A DNA stretch of 15,002 bases, from assembly GCA_021157815.1 (NCBI GenBank), contig JAGGVT010000193.1, positions 1 through 15,002 on the forward strand. Reading direction: 5' to 3'. Position numbers and translations under genes: made by a program. Shown one piece after another: positions 4,365 to 14,635 of the stretch. Under the pieces are notes generated by a model. The model worked only from the letters and a program-made list of their open reading frames with translations, had not been told where the DNA came from and ran no database searches. The first letter of the stretch is position 1; every line of letters begins with the position of its first letter. This DNA is from a bacterium (lineage in GTDB: Bacteria; JAJVIF01; JAGGVT01).

Positions 4365-4452
4365 TTTTTTATTTGAACTCTACTTGAGTTGAATTCATCG
4401 TAATTTCGTTTAAACTATATGGTTTGCTGAAAACTTGATGAAAGGGGAAACT

Positions 4453-6126
4453 GTGCCTACATCATTTTTGGATGATTATATTTCTTTAGAGTTGTTTCCA
4501 AAGAAACTTTCCGCGGATGGGAAAAGCATAGGGCATTTTGTCATCACCACCAATGACCCGAAAAAGCGTTCAATTGACGGCTCCTATCCGATTCAGGTCG
4601 CGATGAGAAACGCCGCGATTATAACGAAATCGAACAATCCTGCCGCACAGTCCGAGAATGATTCACAGCATCGGAAGGTTTCCTTTCTGACTACAGACAA
4701 CGAACTTCGAATAAATTATATCCCGGATAAAAACACAGAGGAATCAGACCTTTTCATATCGACGCCGTGGGGGGATATTGAACAGAGAATCAAATTCACA
4801 ACCGGCTTAAAACATTCAATCAGCGAAACAATGGAGTGCATGATTTACGCTTTCATTATCGCTATCATTTTCCGCTATCTTCTTTTCTCCGCGTTTTTCA
4901 TTCCATCGCAATCAATGAAAAACACGCTAGATATCGGCGACAGGATAATCGCCAGCAAGATTGTTTACACTCTGCGTGACCCCAGGAATCAGGAAGTCGT
5001 GATTTTTAATACCTTTTCACCAAAAGAAAGAATGGCGAAATTCCATCTTGAAAGTTCCATTCATTTCGACCCGATAAGGAATCTTCGTGAGCCTGATTAT
5101 TACAAGGATGCCGGCGAGCTTGTCAAGGCGATTGTTGACGCGGATTTCAGGGACAGGGTGGAAATACGGGATGACGCTTTTTATGTAAACAACTTGTGCA
5201 TGGGGTTTCCGCAAAATTCAGACGATCCCGGAAAACTCGAAATCGATGGCAAGTTCTTCGCCTATGGTGAAATTATCAATGACGATATCACTCTCCCCGA
5301 CCAGTTCCTTGGCTCACTCTACATAATCGGCAATCATCTAATGCTGGGCGACAATCGAATCGACCTTGGGCAGGTGGACGTTTACTATCCGCTCGGCAAT
5401 CCCGGTTATGTCATGTACAAGAGCCAGATGCCGAGGAATTTGATTCTGGATGCCATCAAAGCGGGTTTCTTCAAATTGATAGGTAGAAAACCGCAGCTTC
5501 TTGTCGGTGAAAATCAGGTTATCGGCGATTTGATTCTCAAAGGGCGGGACTGGACCATCTTCGGTCAGCCTCTCGATTTGAACATGAACAGGCGACCCCT
5601 GCGATTTTCGCTGCCATACCAGGGTAGAAACCAAAACAGAATCGAACTTGGCAGAATGTATGTCGAGAACGGAGTTATTGTTTTGAAAAATGGCGACAAA
5701 ATACTTAAGCGATTCGGCCAACCGATTTTACGCGATGATATCGCTCTCATCAATGGCCAGCTTCTTGGGTACGTGCGTAAAACGGATGACGGTTTCACAA
5801 TAAACAGCCTCCCGCTGACAACACTGTGGGAAACTCGGGATTTTATCAAACGGTGCATCGCTGTCCCCGGTGATGAATTGAAAATCGAAAATGGCAAGGT
5901 GTTCATTAACGGTGAACCGTTGAATGAACCATACCTCGATGATGAAAACATGCGCTATGATGATTTCGGACCTATCACAATCCCTGAAGGCCGCTATTTC
6001 ATGATGGGCGACAATCGCAATAACTCAAAGGACAGCCGGTATCTGGGCCCTGTCCTCAGGGAGAACATACGGGGAAAAGCCATGCTCGTATTCTACCCCT
6101 TCAATAGAGTCAAAAGCGTGCGTTGA
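4453..6126 (+). CDS. lepB: Enlarged type I signal peptidase (S26 family) with duplicated catalytic region
   Basis: Type I signal peptidases remove signal peptides from exported proteins with a Ser/Lys dyad outside the inner membrane. From the GTG start the protein has 557 residues, against the usual 200-320. In order: an N-terminal domain (about 1-115) that resembles a bacterial Ig-like (Big_1) fold; one membrane helix (about 132-150); the nucleophile box IPSQSM with Ser154; box C (GDRIIASKIVY, 162-172); and, far downstream, the Lys box FIKRCIAVPGD with Lys466 and GDNRNNSKDSR at 519-529. Between these, VKAIVDADF..RVEIRDDAFYVNN (Lys225) and LMLGDNRID (299-302) look like a degenerate earlier copy of the same boxes. 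GTG at 4453 is preferred because AAAGGGG lies 5 nt upstream; ATG at 4438 and TTG at 4435 are alternatives without a ribosome-binding site. Confidence 0.88.
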   Translation: MPTSFLDDYISLELFPKKLSADGKSIGHFVITTNDPKKRSIDGSYPIQVAMRNAAIITKSNNPAAQSENDSQHRKVSFLTTDNELRINYIPDKNTEESDLFISTPWGDIEQRIKFTTGLKHSISETMECMIYAFIIAIIFRYLLFSAFFIPSQSMKNTLDIGDRIIASKIVYTLRDPRNQEVVIFNTFSPKERMAKFHLESSIHFDPIRNLREPDYYKDAGELVKAIVDADFRDRVEIRDDAFYVNNLCMGFPQNSDDPGKLEIDGKFFAYGEIINDDITLPDQFLGSLYIIGNHLMLGDNRIDLGQVDVYYPLGNPGYVMYKSQMPRNLILDAIKAGFFKLIGRKPQLLVGENQVIGDLILKGRDWTIFGQPLDLNMNRRPLRFSLPYQGRNQNRIELGRMYVENGVIVLKNGDKILKRFGQPILRDDIALINGQLLGYVRKTDDGFTINSLPLTTLWETRDFIKRCIAVPGDELKIENGKVFINGEPLNEPYLDDENMRYDDFGPITIPEGRYFMMGDNRNNSKDSRYLGPVLRENIRGKAMLVFYPFNRVKSVR

Positions 6127-6153: not shown

Positions 6154-6173
6154 CCCGGTGTCCCTTCACCGGG
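6154..6173. other. GC-rich hairpin after the signal peptidase gene
   Basis: CCCGGTG (6154-6160) and CACCGGG (6167-6173) form a 7-bp perfect stem with loop TCCCTT, 27 bp after the signal peptidase stop codon. No T tract follows (GGTCTCGTTGG), so it is at best a weak terminator. It could instead protect the mRNA end or affect initiation of the next gene. Confidence 0.45.
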
Positions 6174-6214
6174 GGTCTCGTTGGACATGTATCTGTTGTA
6201 TTATTAAGTTTGAA

Positions 6215-6979
6215 ATGATGAATTCACTAAAAAAAATCCTGATTATTTTACTTTGCATTCTCTTTTCTCCTCTGAATATACTTCTGGGTATTGTTTTTGT
6301 TTTTTCCTTTTATATGGTGCAATCGGAGGTTATAGGTTTCATACTGGGAACGTTCTCGATAAGCTCGTTGATTTCCATTTACCTGGTTTATCGAAATGGT
6401 TATTTGAAAAGAGTTGCATTCAACCTAATTGCATCAATGATTCTTCTTCTATCTCTATTCCTCGGATATGCAGGTGGAAACTACTGTCAATGTATGACAG
6501 GATTCGATTGGTACGGGCGCACCTACTCGTCACTATGGGAATTTGCAATTGCTCAAAAAAGAATCAAGAGCGAAAGCCAAACAGGTAATTACGCAAACTG
6601 GTCTGAACTGATGGAGTATTTATCTCACGAAAGAAGGAACACGCATGAAGATGCGATTCGTGATTACAACATTACTTTGTTTGAAGTTAAACCCAGATTG
6701 CTTAATGAAAACGGGGAAATGGTAACTGATTCATCATTTACTATTGTTGCAGAACCGGATTTTATCAACCCTCGTGTAAAATTTATTCCCTATCCAATTT
6801 ATATTCATAAACATGGAAACGATACATTTTTACTCTTTGGCAGCGAACCAAAATATCAACTTCGCACTTTCGCAATATGTGAAGATATGATACCCCGTGT
6901 TTGGATTGGTAAAGATAGTGATTTCGATATCGAAGATATAAATCTGGATAATTCAGAACAATGGGAAATAATTCAGTAA
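6215..6979 (+). CDS. Unrecognised membrane protein with soluble C-terminal domain
   Basis: I do not recognise this protein. From ATG 6215 it has 254 residues. The first 85 or so hold about three hydrophobic segments (near 8-33, 38-58 and 66-86). A short Cys-containing motif NYCQCMTGFDWYGR follows, then a mainly hydrophilic domain of about 160 residues. The segment SLWEFAIAQKRIKSES, followed by NYANWSELMEYL, recalls the region after the stem in pilin-like proteins, but no prepilin motif is present. The start is uncertain: the frame can be extended to GTG 6158, but that codon sits in the preceding hairpin, so ATG 6215 or 6218 is preferred although neither has a good Shine-Dalgarno. It follows the signal peptidase gene by about 90 bp on the same strand and may be co-transcribed. 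Confidence 0.6.
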   Translation: MMNSLKKILIILLCILFSPLNILLGIVFVFSFYMVQSEVIGFILGTFSISSLISIYLVYRNGYLKRVAFNLIASMILLLSLFLGYAGGNYCQCMTGFDWYGRTYSSLWEFAIAQKRIKSESQTGNYANWSELMEYLSHERRNTHEDAIRDYNITLFEVKPRLLNENGEMVTDSSFTIVAEPDFINPRVKFIPYPIYIHKHGNDTFLLFGSEPKYQLRTFAICEDMIPRVWIGKDSDFDIEDINLDNSEQWEIIQ

Positions 6980-7090: not shown

Positions 7091-7648
7091 TTAAGGAAAA
7101 GGGGACAGGTACATTAAAATGGAATGACAATGGTTGTTGTTGTTTATTGTAAATGTACCTGTCCCCTTTTTCTCGCTAAATTCCGGGAGGTCGGGGATTA
7201 GCGCGTCGGGACCGAACAATCCGCCCGGAGGAATTCCCGGCTGCATTTCGTTCGGAATGTTGCAAGCCGCATCAAACCTACCCATCCCGATAAACGCGCC
7301 ACCGCCATCCGACGGCAGCCCGTAATTCGGATTATTGTAGCCGGATGGCATTAGCATTGCCCCACCGACATCGAACCCCGGATCAATTTCAGGCGGACTC
7401 AAATCAGGAGCGCCCTCGCCGGGATTAGGTCGCGGATGCCAGTCAGGACGCCGTATTATATTACCTCTTTTTGGGATATCCCAACCTGACCCATCCCTCA
7501 GATCAGGAATCAAACCCTCCGGCGCGGGGCAGAACGGCAAAAACGGCCCCTCCGACCAGTACGGCGACCGCATCCCGCTGTTCGGAAACAGCATCCTGCC
7601 GGCAACCTGCTCATCGTTCGATTGCGGATCTTTGCTGCCGTCCTCCAA
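7091..7648 (-). pseudogene. Gly/Pro/Asp-rich hypothetical frame, probably cut by a repeat insertion
   Basis: A 185-codon frame of low-complexity, Gly/Pro/Asp-rich protein with no domain I recognise. The phrase LIPDL occurs twice (GLIPDLRDG and ALIPDLPEF). Base composition is visibly more GC-rich than the flanks and the codon choice looks gene-like. However, it begins at a TTG without a ribosome-binding site, just inside the GGGACTGTCCC palindrome at 7656-7666. Its last 30 or so residues (from EKKGTGTF to YLSPFP) are translated from the 74-bp inverted repeat at 7097-7170. The natural reading is a gene remnant whose 3' end was replaced by a repeat element. A genuine short protein cannot be excluded. 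Confidence 0.4.
7097..7170. repeat. Perfect 19-bp inverted repeat with GGGGACAGGTAC arms
   Basis: The left arm AAAAGGGGACAGGTACATT (7097-7115) is the exact reverse complement of the right arm (7152-7170), with a 36-nt loop. The right arm runs into TTTTT, so on the plus strand it could also act as a strong terminator for the membrane protein gene. Its GGGGACAG core relates it to the palindromes at 201-211 and 7656-7666. By analogy with REP/MITE-like elements mobilised by Y1 transposases, it is probably a non-autonomous repeat element. No target-site duplication is evident. Confidence 0.75.
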
Positions 7649-7696: not shown

Positions 7697-8635
7697 TCAT
7701 AGAATTGCGGAATAATCCACATTCCAAATCCTGAGTGTCGTATCCCGCTTATCCAGCGTGGCAAGGATCGGCTTACTTGGATGAAATGCGATTCCGGAAA
7801 TCGAATAGTGATGTCCTTTAACCCTTAAACCAACCTCCTGCGAATTCTTCTCAAGGTTCCATATTCTCACGCTGTTATCGTGGGATTTGGACGCCATAAT
7901 CCTGCTGTCAGATGCAAACGACATCGCGTTAACAAGGTTTTCGTGTCCAATCAAAGTCGCTTTTTCTTTAAATGTTTCAAGATTCCAGCTGATAATGGCG
8001 CCGTCCTCGGAACCGGACAGGAGGTATTTCCCGTCAGGTGACCAGAGCGCGGAAGTAACAATTCCCCTGTGTCCGTGTAATGTTGCCACAAGATCATTGT
8101 TCTCAACGTTCCATATTTCGATTTCCCGCCTTTGCTGCAATACGATGATTGTCTTTCCATCCGGTGACCAGGCGAGATCGTTGGGATTTGTTTCAATATT
8201 GACAGGTTTGTATTTCTCCTCCCACGATTCGGTATCCCAGAATTTGACTGTACGATCATTGGATGTTGTCGCGATAGTCTTATCATCGGGTGACCAGGCG
8301 ATTGCGCAAATCGAATCTGTGTGCTTCTTTTCGATCCTCTCAGGTTCTTTTGCATCTTTGTCCCAGATTATGAAGCTGTGGTCATCGGATGCTGAAGCAA
8401 GTCTGCCGCTTTTATGCGACCAGTCAACACAGACAGCTCGCCGGGTGTGTTTTCTCAGTGAATAGAGCATCTTTCCCGTACCAGGATCCCAGAATGTGAT
8501 AGAGCCGTTCTTGTAGGGAGCAGTGATAAGTTTTCCATCAGGAGTCCACTTGAATCGTCCAACTCCTCCTTTGGATGCTCTCAGAGTTTTTACGAGTTCC
8601 AATTGGGACGGTCGGTCTTCAATAACGCTGTTCAT
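7697..8635 (-). CDS. WD40-repeat beta-propeller protein
   Basis: A 312-residue protein made of seven WD40 repeats, enough for one closed seven-bladed propeller and no other domain. The blade-closing W-D/N pairs are at residues 49, 91, 133, 175, 217, 259 and 304. The first six are exactly 42 residues apart, and each blade has the usual SPDGK-type turn (WSPDGK, WSPDDK). WD40 propellers are protein-interaction platforms. With no signal peptide, membrane segment, kinase or NACHT module attached, the partner is unknown and a cytoplasmic location is likely. The ATG at 8635 has AAGGA (8648-8644) 8 nt upstream. It stands alone, with repeats downstream and a 380-bp gap upstream. Confidence 0.9.
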   Translation of the reverse strand: MNSVIEDRPSQLELVKTLRASKGGVGRFKWTPDGKLITAPYKNGSITFWDPGTGKMLYSLRKHTRRAVCVDWSHKSGRLASASDDHSFIIWDKDAKEPERIEKKHTDSICAIAWSPDDKTIATTSNDRTVKFWDTESWEEKYKPVNIETNPNDLAWSPDGKTIIVLQQRREIEIWNVENNDLVATLHGHRGIVTSALWSPDGKYLLSGSEDGAIISWNLETFKEKATLIGHENLVNAMSFASDSRIMASKSHDNSVRIWNLEKNSQEVGLRVKGHHYSISGIAFHPSKPILATLDKRDTTLRIWNVDYSAIL

Positions 8636-9017: not shown

Positions 9018-10910
9018 TTAGAATTTGGCAAGTTTTTCATCATCACTCTCGAAAGGTATGACATCTTCCGGCCTTTCCATTTGCGCACTGGAAACAGTGC
9101 TTGCCATTTGATGAACAGCAGCATGCCCATTTGTGCGATTCGTCAGCTTATTCACAACATGCTTAATGCCCGCCCTTGTGCTTTTGCGCCCGGATGAACC
9201 CAACTCATTATCATCACTACCTGCTCTGCCAACGATTTTTATTAAATCATTTACCATAGTCTTCAGCATTTCAGCCTGTCCAGCCATCTCCTCAGCTGCA
9301 GATGCTGATTCTTCCGAATTCGATGCGTTAGCCTGTGTTGCCTGATCAACCTGAGTCATTGCAATGTTCATCTGCTCAATTCCCTGAGCCTGCTCAGTTG
9401 ATGCAGCAGCGATTTCAGCAACCAGCTCTTTCACCTTGTTCGAGGAACTAATGATTTCATTCAAAGTCTGTGAAGTTTCCTCTGAAACTTTTACGCCTTG
9501 CTCGGCATTCCCGACTGATTCCTCGATCAGCGCTGATGTATTCTTTGCAGCTTCTGCTGATCGTTGTGCAAGGTTTCGGACCTCCTCGGCAACGACAGCG
9601 AACCCCTTGCCGGCATCACCGGCTCGAGCGGCTTCCACTGCAGCGTTCAAGGCAAGAAGGTTTGTCTGGAAAGCAACATCATCGATGGTTTTGACAATCT
9701 TCGCGGTTTCATCTGAGGAGGCTTTGATTTTATCGACAGAACTGGTCAATCGCTTCATTGCATCCTGTCCCTTGCCAATTATCTCCACAGTTTCGCCTAC
9801 CAGTGTATTCGCCTGTTGCGAATTTGAGGCGTTCTGTTTTGTCATTGAGCTTAATTCCTCAAGTGAACTTGTGGTTTCTTCGACTGCCGCCGCCTGTTCA
9901 CTTGTCCCTTGCGCAACCTGCTGGCTGGATTCTGACACCTGTTCAGCAGCTGTGCCCATCTGGCCTGAGCTTTCAGTTAATCCGGCAATAACACGATTAA
10001 TCGGCAACGTGATGGATCTGGCGATAAAAAACGCAACTACGACACCGATAACGAATGTTACTATCCCGATAATAAGAGCCAGTGTCATTCTTTGGCTTGC
10101 CATATTGCTTGTGGATTCCACATCTGAATTCATTCCTGCCAGTGCCTCCTCCCTGATTTCCCTTGCCAGTGGCTCGATCTTGCTGACCTCAGCTCGCAAT
10201 ACTTCCATACCGGAAGCTATCTTCTTATCCTGTGCTACAAGAGCATTAAAGCTGGATATATATTTGTCACAAACATCGATAATATTCTTGTTATCCGTTC
10301 GACTCTTAAGTTCAGCGATATTGTTACGAGTATTGTCCACATATTTCTCGTCTCCTCGAATAAGATAATTCTTCTCGTCCCTGCGCACTGTAAGAAGCAA
10401 TATCTGGAGATCCTTATCGCTGTTATTTTCCAGTGTTGCTTCCAAATCTCGAGCAGCAGTTACGAACTCACCTTGAAGGCCGGATTCGTGATCCAATCCC
10501 TTCGTTTCCCACGCGGCTGCAACCTTCTTGAATTCCTTAATATAGGCTTCCCCATATTTCTCGATTTCCTTTGTTTTTAAGGAAAGATCATCCGCACCGC
10601 TTTTATCAGCTATTTCATTAATAGCAACTGCATCCTCCATAACCATTGCATAATGGCTTTCCAGGCTCTCCACATGTTTGTTGTCCAACTCCATCAGGAA
10701 GTTTTTCTCGTCACGACGGCATTGAATAATATCCTTCTCGGCTTCAAGTCCAAGTTCAGCTATTCTGACTTCATTTTCAAACAGATTACCAAATCCTGTT
10801 TTGACAGACATGAGCGATAAATGGTAAATAGCCATTATTCCGACCAGCAGGACAAGCACAAGTCCAAAGCCAAAACCGATCTTCGCTCCTAATTTCATAT
10901 TATTAAACAT
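9018..10910 (-). CDS. Methyl-accepting chemotaxis protein with two-module helical sensor
   Basis: A 630-residue transmembrane chemoreceptor that senses ligand outside the inner membrane and controls CheA through CheW. Membrane helix 1 is about residues 11-30 and helix 2 about 276-297. The sensor between them (about 31-275) is all-helical and holds two copies of the motif RRDEKN[FY]L (65-72 and 176-183), as in HBM-type bimodular sensors. After helix 2 there is only a short HAMP-like start ([14 protein letters not shown]), and the conserved second HAMP helix is not evident. The cytoplasmic coiled coil carries the standard hairpin tip around 411-445 ([19 protein letters not shown]). The C-terminus ends EKLAKF without the NWETF-type CheR/CheB tether. 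The ATG has AAGGAG (10925-10920) 9 nt upstream. No che genes are in the window, so it is an orphan receptor. Confidence 0.95.
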
Positions 10911-11290: not shown

Positions 11291-11932
11291 CTATTTTATC
11301 AGGTTGTTTTGTATGGCAAAACGCACAAGTTCACCAAGGTTTTTCAATCCAAGTTTTTTCATCGCCCGGCTTTTATACGTTTCAATAGTGTGTGGGCTTA
11401 AACCCAATTCATCAGCAATCTCGGTCAACGTTTCGCATCGGCTCAATCTGGTTACAACCTGCAGTTCCCTGTCAGAAAGCAGCGAAACAGGATCCTCACC
11501 GCCAGGTTGAAGCAATCGTGATGTTATTCTCTCCTTTAATGATGGCGACAAATAAAGTAAATCGGACGATACGGCTATTATTGCTTCTAATAATTCATCA
11601 TATGAACACTGTTTATTGAGATAGCCCTTTGCGCCGGATTTTATAAGTCGAATTGCGTATTTCTCATTGTCATGTTCAGTAAGAACAAGCATCTTTACAC
11701 ATGGCTCGAAAGAAACCAATTGGTTAATGACTTCAAAACCATCGATATCAGGCAGATCCAATTCCAGTAACAATATATCTGGCTGCAACTTTTTACATAA
11801 TTCCATGGCATCACGGCCTGTTGCAGTGTCCCCAACTACCTCAATATCGGGATTATCTTTAATCAAATGCCTCAATATCTCTCTAAAAAGCGTGTTGTTA
11901 TCAGCTATGATTATTCGAATTCCTTTTTTCAT
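11291..11932 (-). CDS. NarL/FixJ-type regulator with Glu at the phosphoacceptor site
   Basis: A 213-residue two-domain regulator: receiver domain (about 4-120) and LuxR-type helix-turn-helix (about 151-207, with LSDRELQVV and TIETYKSRAMKKLG). In ordinary members the receiver is phosphorylated on Asp in a motif like LLDLxMPxxxG. Here it reads LLELDLPDIDG, with Glu57 at that place. The acidic pair that binds Mg2+ reads ADNN, so only Asp11 is kept. Thr85 and Lys107 are conserved. It is probably not regulated by Asp phosphorylation and may be permanently active or respond to another signal. The ATG at 11932 gives the normal family length; a GTG at 11971 would add 13 residues without a ribosome-binding site. 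It is a close paralogue of the next gene upstream, with no kinase nearby. Confidence 0.9.
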   Translation of the reverse strand: MKKGIRIIIADNNTLFREILRHLIKDNPDIEVVGDTATGRDAMELCKKLQPDILLLELDLPDIDGFEVINQLVSFEPCVKMLVLTEHDNEKYAIRLIKSGAKGYLNKQCSYDELLEAIIAVSSDLLYLSPSLKERITSRLLQPGGEDPVSLLSDRELQVVTRLSRCETLTEIADELGLSPHTIETYKSRAMKKLGLKNLGELVRFAIQNNLIK

Positions 11933-12020
11933 AACATAATCTTGTTTTAGACATAATTTTAGATATATCACTTTGGCAAGTATTTCTGATATATTGAATT
12001 TCGGAATATGCTACAAATTC

Positions 12021-12031
12021 TACTGTCAGTA
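12021..12031. promoter_or_regulatory. TACTG-T-CAGTA palindrome upstream of the first regulator
   Basis: The 11-bp palindrome TACTGTCAGTA is centred 94 bp upstream of the ATG at 11932, or 55 bp upstream of the alternative GTG at 11971. It matches the core of the palindrome upstream of the paralogous regulator (13045-13060) except for one extra central base. It is a candidate operator shared by both genes. Confidence 0.4.
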
Positions 12032-12215
12032 TTAGCAGGTTAATAATGAGGTAGGTTTACTATTTATAATGAGATTTAATCCCGCAATAAAGTTCATTAT
12101 ATTTACTATCTGAATGTAGTTCTTTTGCGACTACCTTGTAATCAAGATATAACCTTAACATTAATAAATGACTTAAAAGAGGCAATGAATGATAAAATAA
12201 AGTTAACATAAATAT

Positions 12216-12241
12216 GGAAACTAAACACGAAAACAGTTTCC
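12216..12241 (-). terminator. Possible weak terminator after the second regulator
   Basis: GGAAACT (12216-12222) and AGTTTCC (12235-12241) form a 7-bp stem with a 12-nt loop, about 75 bp past the regulator's stop. On the minus strand it is followed by T-rich but interrupted sequence (ATATTTATGTT). The stem is AT-rich, so it is only a weak candidate. Confidence 0.3.
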
Positions 12242-12314
12242 GTTAAAAGAGAGAACCCAAGAATATTTCTTGATTTCCAGTGGTCTTGAGATATTATGAA
12301 AGAGAGAGAATTAG

Positions 12315-13001
12315 CTAATACTTGCTAATCAGGTTGTTTCTAATGGTAAAACGCACTAGTTCGCCAATGTTCTTTAGACCAAGCTTTTTCATTGCTCGGC
12401 TTTTGTATGTTTCAACTGTACGTTGACTTAAAAATAAGTTACTCGAAATGGTTTTGATTGTTTCACCCAGCCCCAATCTTGATATGATCTGGAGTTCCCT
12501 GTTGGAAAGATCAGCCACAGAAAAACTTCCGACTGGTTGAAGCAATCGTGAAGTTATTCTTTCCCTCAATGATTGGGATAAATAAAGTGAGCCTGATGAG
12601 ACAATCTTAATTGCTTCAATCAGTTCATCAAATGTAATTTCCCTGTTAATGTATCCTGTTGCCCCTGATTTGATAAGTCGAATTGCGTACTCCTCATTGT
12701 CATATGCCGTAAGAACAAGTGTCTTAACGCTTGATTTTGAAATTAAAAGTTGCCTTACAACATCAAATCCATCAATATCAGGCAGGTCTAATTCGAGCAA
12801 TAATACATCCGGCTGTAGTTTTTCACATAATTCGATAGCCTCTCGACCTGTTCCGACATCTCCTATAACTTCAATTTCAGGCGTTGTGGCAATATAATTA
12901 CTTAATCCAATCCTGCATAAAGACTGATGGTCAGCTAACAGGACCTTGATTCGACCCTTTGGAATGTGGCCTTTCTGATCTGTTTTCATGCTATCATTCA
13001 T
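12315..13001 (-). CDS. NarL/FixJ-type regulator with degenerate receiver (Glu for Asp, Arg for Lys)
   Basis: A 228-residue paralogue of the regulator at 11291-11932, with obvious similarity throughout, including DNA level. The receiver spans about 18-135 and the LuxR-type helix-turn-helix about 166-220 (LSNRELQII, TVETYKSRAMKKLGLKN). The phosphoacceptor position is Glu70 (LLELDLPDIDG). The acidic pair reads ADHQ, so the second acid is His25. The conserved Lys is Arg120 (GYINRE), while Thr98 is kept. Loss of Asp, one metal ligand and Lys together argues against normal phosphotransfer. DNA binding looks intact. The start is ATG 13001, or ATG 12989; a GGGGG upstream is too far away to serve as a Shine-Dalgarno. 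It is transcribed divergently from pncB. Confidence 0.9.
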   Translation of the reverse strand: MNDSMKTDQKGHIPKGRIKVLLADHQSLCRIGLSNYIATTPEIEVIGDVGTGREAIELCEKLQPDVLLLELDLPDIDGFDVVRQLLISKSSVKTLVLTAYDNEEYAIRLIKSGATGYINREITFDELIEAIKIVSSGSLYLSQSLRERITSRLLQPVGSFSVADLSNRELQIISRLGLGETIKTISSNLFLSQRTVETYKSRAMKKLGLKNIGELVRFTIRNNLISKY

Positions 13002-13255: not shown

Positions 13256-14635
13256 ATGCGACACTCAAACGAAACCGACCCTGATATCCCGGCGTTGCTG
13301 ATCGACCTTTATGAGCTCACGATGTCAGCCGCGTACTGGGACAATAATATCAATTCAGTCGCGACGTTCGACCTGTTTTTCCGCAATCTGCCTGAGAATC
13401 GCAACTACCTGATTACGTGCGGCATTGAACGAGCTATCAATTTCATCCTTAATCTGAAATTCGACCATCGCGAGATAAACTACCTGCGAGGACTCCCGAT
13501 TTTCGAAAACCTGTCGCCGATTTTCTTTGAGTATCTTTCGCAATTGAGATTCACCGGAACGGCTCGCGCGATGCCTGCCGGGACATTCGTTTTTCCCAAC
13601 GAGCCTGTGGTTGAAATAACCGCTCCGATTATCGAGGCGCAAATTTTGGAAACCGCGCTTTTAAGCGTGATCAATTTCGAAACGATGGTGGCATCCAAAG
13701 CCGCGCGAGTTGTGCAGGCGGCGGAGGGGCGAATGGTCGTTGAATTCGGAGCACGGCGCGCGCATGGCCCCGGTGCTGCTGTTGCAGGCGCGCGAGCAGC
13801 GTGTATCGGCGGTTGCGTGGGGACATCGAATCTGGAGGCCGGACTGCTCTATAATCTGCCCGTTTACGGCACAATCGCACATTCATATATCATGGCTCAT
13901 GATGATGAACTCGAGGCTTATGAGAATTTCGCCAAAACATTCCCGAACGATACCATCCTTCTAATTGACACCTACGACACAATCGAGGGTGCGAAACTGG
14001 CAGTTAGAATCGGGAAAAGTGTAAAAGCGGTCAGGCTGGATTCAGGTGACTTGCTTGAACTGAGCCGGGAGGTAAGGAAGATACTTGATGACGCCGGCAT
14101 GGCTGAGACTAAAATCATGGCATCAAGCGATTTGAACGAGACCAAATTACGAATGTTGATGAACGAGAACGCGCCGATAGACAGCTTCGGAATCGGCAGT
14201 GAGCTGATTACATCGAAGGATGCCCCATCCATGCCCGGTGTCTATAAACTGGTTGAAACGCGGGAGGATGGTAAAACGCATTATCGAATCAAACTAAGCA
14301 AAGATAAAATCAATCTCCCGGGACGCAAGCAGGTTTACAGGATGCGCGACGCCAACGGCATGTTTGTAAAGGATATCATCGCGGCCGGTGGCGAGTTCGA
14401 CAACGAGACGAATCTCAGCCCTCTGCTGATTACATACATTAATGATGGCAAACTTGTGGAGGAATTGCCGTCGATTGAGTGGATTCAGAATCAAGTAAAA
14501 CGAGGCATGACTGAATTCAGCGATGAGCTAATAGATCCGCTGGCATCGGTGGATTATCCTGTGGAGGTAAGTCCGCGGATAAAAGAGATGATTAAGATCG
14601 CGAAAAGCGAGCATGAGGGAACTACCGAATCGTAA
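13256..14635 (+). CDS. pncB: Nicotinate phosphoribosyltransferase
   Basis: This 459-residue enzyme joins nicotinate and PRPP, with ATP hydrolysis, to give nicotinate mononucleotide in the Preiss-Handler NAD salvage pathway in the cytoplasm. The family pattern is complete: N-terminal LLIDLYELTM (14-23), EFGARRAH (163-170), GTIAHS with His209 at the position of the autophosphorylated histidine, the phosphate-binding region LDSGDL (261-266) and GIGSELITSKD (312-322). Length is normal. The ATG at 13256 is preceded by GGGGG at 13244-13248, which is also one arm of a leader hairpin. It is transcribed away from the regulator at 12315-13001. No other NAD genes are in the window. Confidence 0.97.
   Translation: MRHSNETDPDIPALLIDLYELTMSAAYWDNNINSVATFDLFFRNLPENRNYLITCGIERAINFILNLKFDHREINYLRGLPIFENLSPIFFEYLSQLRFTGTARAMPAGTFVFPNEPVVEITAPIIEAQILETALLSVINFETMVASKAARVVQAAEGRMVVEFGARRAHGPGAAVAGARAACIGGCVGTSNLEAGLLYNLPVYGTIAHSYIMAHDDELEAYENFAKTFPNDTILLIDTYDTIEGAKLAVRIGKSVKAVRLDSGDLLELSREVRKILDDAGMAETKIMASSDLNETKLRMLMNENAPIDSFGIGSELITSKDAPSMPGVYKLVETREDGKTHYRIKLSKDKINLPGRKQVYRMRDANGMFVKDIIAAGGEFDNETNLSPLLITYINDGKLVEELPSIEWIQNQVKRGMTEFSDELIDPLASVDYPVEVSPRIKEMIKIAKSEHEGTTES

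Follow-up and report, generated by a model that had tools for sequence, protein, structure and literature searches.

Background

Established receiver chemistry needs an acceptor Asp together with a Mg ion held by DD2, the second Asp of the acidic pair DD1-DD2 (PMC12632262). In aspartate-less receivers Glu is the most frequent replacement of the acceptor Asp (26%), and as a rule DD1 persists and DD2 is missing (PMC4395418, PMC12632262); how such pseudo-receivers are switched on and off was called a mystery in a 2025 review (PMC12632262). An Asp-to-Glu exchange activates some receivers, often only alongside other changes, and ChxR still bound DNA constitutively after its Glu had been substituted (PMC4395418). 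CmrT (Clostridioides difficile) forms homodimers and was inferred to be constitutively active; in its crystal structure the bonds among Glu, Thr and Lys largely resemble those of an active receiver, the E53A allele was like wild type, and function was reduced by D9A and K102A (PMC12548384). AtvR (Pseudomonas aeruginosa), as it is described in PMC12548384, was inferred to be constitutively active without a kinase.

Locus and domain composition

The window, i.e. the whole stretch of DNA analysed, is the entire 15,002-base contig (C205) of a 3.2-Mb, 221-contig assembly (91% complete); the source phylum was represented in the comparison by four genomes, the window's genome included. The regulator pair and its surroundings are as follows.

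9018 to 10910, minus strand: methyl-accepting chemotaxis protein, downstream neighbour, not a kinase (Pfam)
11291 to 11932, minus strand: copy 1, NarL/LuxR-type regulator with aspartate-less receiver (213 aa from ATG)
11762 to 11764, minus strand: GAA codon of Glu58, phosphoacceptor column of copy 1
11933 to 12314, minus strand: intergenic stretch between the copies, 382 bases
12315 to 13001, minus strand: copy 2, paralogous NarL/LuxR-type regulator with aspartate-less receiver (228 aa)
12792 to 12794, minus strand: GAA codon of Glu70, phosphoacceptor column of copy 2
13256 to 14635, plus strand: nicotinate phosphoribosyltransferase, divergent upstream neighbour, not a kinase (Pfam)

A preliminary description of the region 11291–13001 had named two paralogous NarL-type regulators with an intact LuxR-type DNA-binding domain. 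Both reading frames were found, with receiver (PF00072, Response_reg) and GerE/LuxR helix-turn-helix (PF00196) matches well above the cut-offs; copies 1 and 2 are 62% identical. The most likely start of copy 1 is ATG at 11932, the alternative being GTG at 11971. Each copy may have a promoter of its own, as a candidate only; promoter and terminator scans (consensus matches) gave results equal to those of shuffled sequence, the 382-base gap included. Nothing was found that links the chemotaxis receptor gene to the pair.

The AlphaFold2 model is a confident two-domain structure (mean pLDDT 92) with complete receiver and helix-turn-helix, the interdomain arrangement being uncertain (pTM 0.67). The best full-length fold matches to solved structures (Foldseek) include activated NarL-type LiaR and DesR, a rank that reflects mostly domain fold, activation state not being distinguishable by fold search. 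The N-terminal receiver and C-terminal GerE/LuxR helix-turn-helix (Pfam), the model and the tree placement given below assign both proteins to the NarL/FixJ family, and Pfam match and model show the DNA-binding domain to be intact.

Recognition helices are near-identical between the copies (ETYKSRAMKKLGLKN is common to both) and the linker ERITSRLLQP is conserved. This suggests that the DNA targets of the two copies overlap, so that homo- and heterodimers are possible. That the copies act mainly as a heterodimer, i.e. as a coincidence detector like BldM-WhiI, would fit adjacent paralogues with such helices and linker, and heterodimers are known for BldM-WhiI and suggested for CmrR-CmrT; paralogy alone, however, predicts residues common to both copies, and we regard a mainly heterodimeric mode of action as very doubtful.

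Further reading frames of the window: a signal peptidase I-like protein (4435–6126; 563 aa, far above the usual length, with two separated Peptidase_S26 stretches), a membrane-protein-like frame (6158–6979; 273 aa) and a Gly/Pro-rich frame (7091–7648; 185 aa), the latter two without Pfam match, and a bacterial WD40 beta-propeller protein (7697–8635).

Active-site pocket

HMMER alignments to VraR, DesR and DevR placed E58 (copy 1, P0001 numbering) and E70 (copy 2) in the phosphoacceptor column, and N13 (copy 1) and H25 (copy 2) in the column of the second Asp of the Mg pair, as had been proposed at the outset; in 148 of 148 other NarL-type homologues, drawn from many phyla, both columns hold Asp. 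The signature DD1-DD2-D-T-Y-K reads D-N-E-T-Y-K in copy 1 and D-H-E-T-Y-R in copy 2. Kept in both pockets are the first Asp, Thr, Tyr at K-3, Pro at D+4 and Gly at D+8; the conserved Lys is retained in copy 1 and exchanged for Arg in copy 2, and the T+1 residue of copy 1 is bulky and acidic. Since copy 1 has the acidic T+1 residue and copy 2 Arg for Lys, the pockets may differ in how "on" they are. Both proteins lack the phosphorylatable Asp and the complete Mg-binding acid pair of a canonical member (E58/E70, N13/H25), and therefore neither copy is a canonical response regulator; with receiver homology, a replaced acceptor Asp and at least one of the five active-site residues missing, both are aspartate-less receivers.

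With neither acceptor Asp nor DD2, phospho-chemistry should be unavailable according to receiver chemistry (PMC12632262), and loss of kinase-driven phospho-signalling by the pair is well supported at the level of sequence. Of the phosphorylation independence suggested originally, this part stands. Activity may stem from phosphomimicry, but that a phosphomimetic Glu keeps the proteins constitutively active is no more than plausible, because substitution of the Glu left ChxR and CmrT active.

The same pocket could also belong to pseudo-receivers set by a ligand, a redox change or a protein partner, the Glu not being the source of activity. Precedents among atypical regulators are RedZ/JadR1 (antibiotic end products) and Hp1021 (Cys redox), and the pocket changes differ between the copies (N/H at DD2, K/R), as if tuned separately. 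No ligand pocket was seen, however, and the receiver core is otherwise conventional; the sole shared Cys, C47, is not unusual, occurring also in most kinase-linked relatives. Such an input is judged unlikely, though it deserves to be kept in view.

Homologues and timing of the exchange

The 13 closest relatives, with about 37–49% identity to copy 1, are encoded in four genomes (G259, G385, G122, G386) of another little-sampled phylum and have intact pockets in all 13 cases; one reads LLDLDLPDIDGFE, which is the window motif with Asp replacing Glu. In the maximum-likelihood tree the two copies group together with support of 100/99, their clade being nested among these Asp-bearing relatives. From this placement, by parsimony, the Asp-to-Glu exchange most simply falls on the branch preceding an old duplication, in keeping with the order of events proposed earlier; DD2 Asp and the T+1 residue were probably lost before the duplication as well.

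Whether Glu is fixed in a wider clade had been put forward as a check, and beyond this genome it is not: no other retrieved relative has Glu. A scan of 335 genomes with the LLELDLPDIDG pattern gave Glu in the window's two genes only, the other matches being ordinary Asp receivers; the three other genomes of the source phylum contained no NarL-type relative at E<=1e-30, and the viral contigs searched for receivers gave weak matches only.

Selection and conservation

Comparison of copy 1 with copy 2 gave dN 0.31 and dS about 1.9, the synonymous sites of the receiver being saturated. In the beta3/acceptor loop 17 of 18 residues are identical and codons 55–66 differ synonymously in most codons; the identity of the loop is thus not due to recent duplication, gene conversion or chance. 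Purifying selection on both copies is shown by these values, and the Glu has persisted through saturation of synonymous sites, as expected from the earlier suggestion that it was kept by selection.

Thirty receiver columns are conserved in the kinase-linked clade; six of them are changed in both copies, and four of the six (columns 13, 14, 58 and 87, i.e. DD2, DD+1, D and T+1) lie in the pocket (P about 0.03 for the clustering, indicative only because the sites were chosen after the data had been seen). The DNA-binding domain has 20 columns conserved in the clade, one of which is changed in both copies. Change in the pocket with retention of the output domain fits phospho-chemistry that was freed from constraint. 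Copy 1 is additionally without G20 and G125.

The absence of several normally invariant residues, with G20 and G125 missing in copy 1 and Lys in copy 2, is also what non-functional relics in decay would display. Against this, the frames are open, dN is well below dS, the DNA-binding domain is conserved and two copies have been retained; decay is hardly credible.

Kinase linkage

All 12 closest relatives whose upstream side is visible are immediately preceded by a histidine kinase gene (the thirteenth sits at a contig end and was left out): 11 kinase ATPase domains, on the same strand, before the G259, G385 and G122 relatives, and a kinase C-terminus before the G386 relative. Those kinases whose H box can be seen are of the HisKA_3 type (RELHDELGQQ-like). 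The adjacent or orphan kinase that was to be sought gave a divided result. A HATPase_c search of the whole 15,002-base contig found no kinase, so that the pair consists of orphan response regulators; the kinase was probably lost, like the acceptor Asp, before the duplication. The source genome encodes two HisKA_3 kinases, one on C172 adjoining a canonical NarL-type regulator and one orphan on C49.

The orphan (L217:838-2121, G000) is DegS-like; its H, N and G boxes can be recognised and no receiver gene adjoins it. A ribosomal protein L9-like gene precedes it, and no membrane segments were seen by eye. A role as the ancestral partner of the pair was not supported, the kinase not being specifically similar to those of the relatives (REIHDGPAQ vs RELHDELGQQ).

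That the pair is still phosphorylated or allosterically driven by an unlinked kinase, e.g. the one on C49, would draw on the presence of these two kinases, and since the assembly is fragmented and 91% complete, a partner could sit in the missing part. However, acceptor Asp and second Mg ligand are both missing, the C49 kinase shows no clear preferential similarity to the relatives' kinases, and it might act on the canonical NarL-type regulator on C172; control by an unlinked kinase is accordingly rated as highly improbable.

Other pseudo-receivers of the source genome

The acceptor Asp is missing in 7 of 30 receivers of the source genome vs 0 of 32 in three genomes of the same class, a biased contrast, since the 32 were drawn from the strongest matches. 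Beyond the window pair, the pseudo-receivers of this genome comprise an NtrC-type regulator with the signature D-S-E-A-V-K, a receiver that is C-terminal and reads D-T-E, and more that lack the acceptor Asp. Loci of these pseudo-receivers are:

G000 C178:34786-35106 (L133)
C150 (L136)
C194 (L139)
C184 (L135)

Proposed explanation

The reading we favour, and consider rather probable, is that the pair are aspartate-less (pseudo-receiver) NarL-type factors descended from a kinase-controlled ancestor, in which Glu holds the receiver near the active state. The ancestor would have been an ordinary kinase-controlled NarL-type regulator; its phosphorylation chemistry would have been lost (Asp to Glu) before duplication, and today there is no kinase gene beside the pair. 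Aided by the first Asp, the Thr and the basic residue that were retained, the Glu may hold the receiver near the active conformation, and each protein would then be active once made, control being exerted via synthesis or a partner and not by phosphorylation. The receivers would serve folding and dimerisation in kinase-independent transcription factors.

A fuller, lineage-specific route from a two- to a one-component system (kinase lost, Asp turned into a permanent phosphate mimic, duplication, then a new input via homo- vs heterodimers) is offered as speculation and, taken as a whole, is decidedly unlikely.

Comparison with known systems

AtvR, as described in PMC12548384, belongs like the pair to the NarL family, with Glu for the acceptor Asp and a single remaining member of the DD pair, and it keeps T/S, K, Y, P at D+4 and G at D+8 (PMC12548384); it differs in being a single gene with anoxic induction, and copy 2 has Arg for the Lys of AtvR. 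CmrT shares the acceptor Glu (E53), an altered DD motif and the retained Thr and Lys; unlike the pair, it has an OmpR-family output, and its operon also encodes a kinase and a typical regulator. BldM and WhiI (Streptomyces) are likewise orphan atypical regulators, WhiI lacking the Lys and one of the two DD acids, but BldM retains its acceptor Asp (D54), and both are from Actinomycetota and are not described as adjacent close paralogues. Aspartate-less receivers in general show the same Glu/DD1/DD2 pattern as the pair, with no fundamental difference.

The pair is a useful test case and not a new phenomenon. Pseudo-receivers with Glu are already known; what the pair adds is a sister group that is kinase-linked, and a duplication that followed the exchange. 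An identifiable sister group with intact pockets, beside two copies that have kept the Glu and vary at other residues of the pocket, offers a natural before/after comparison of Glu as the source of activity.
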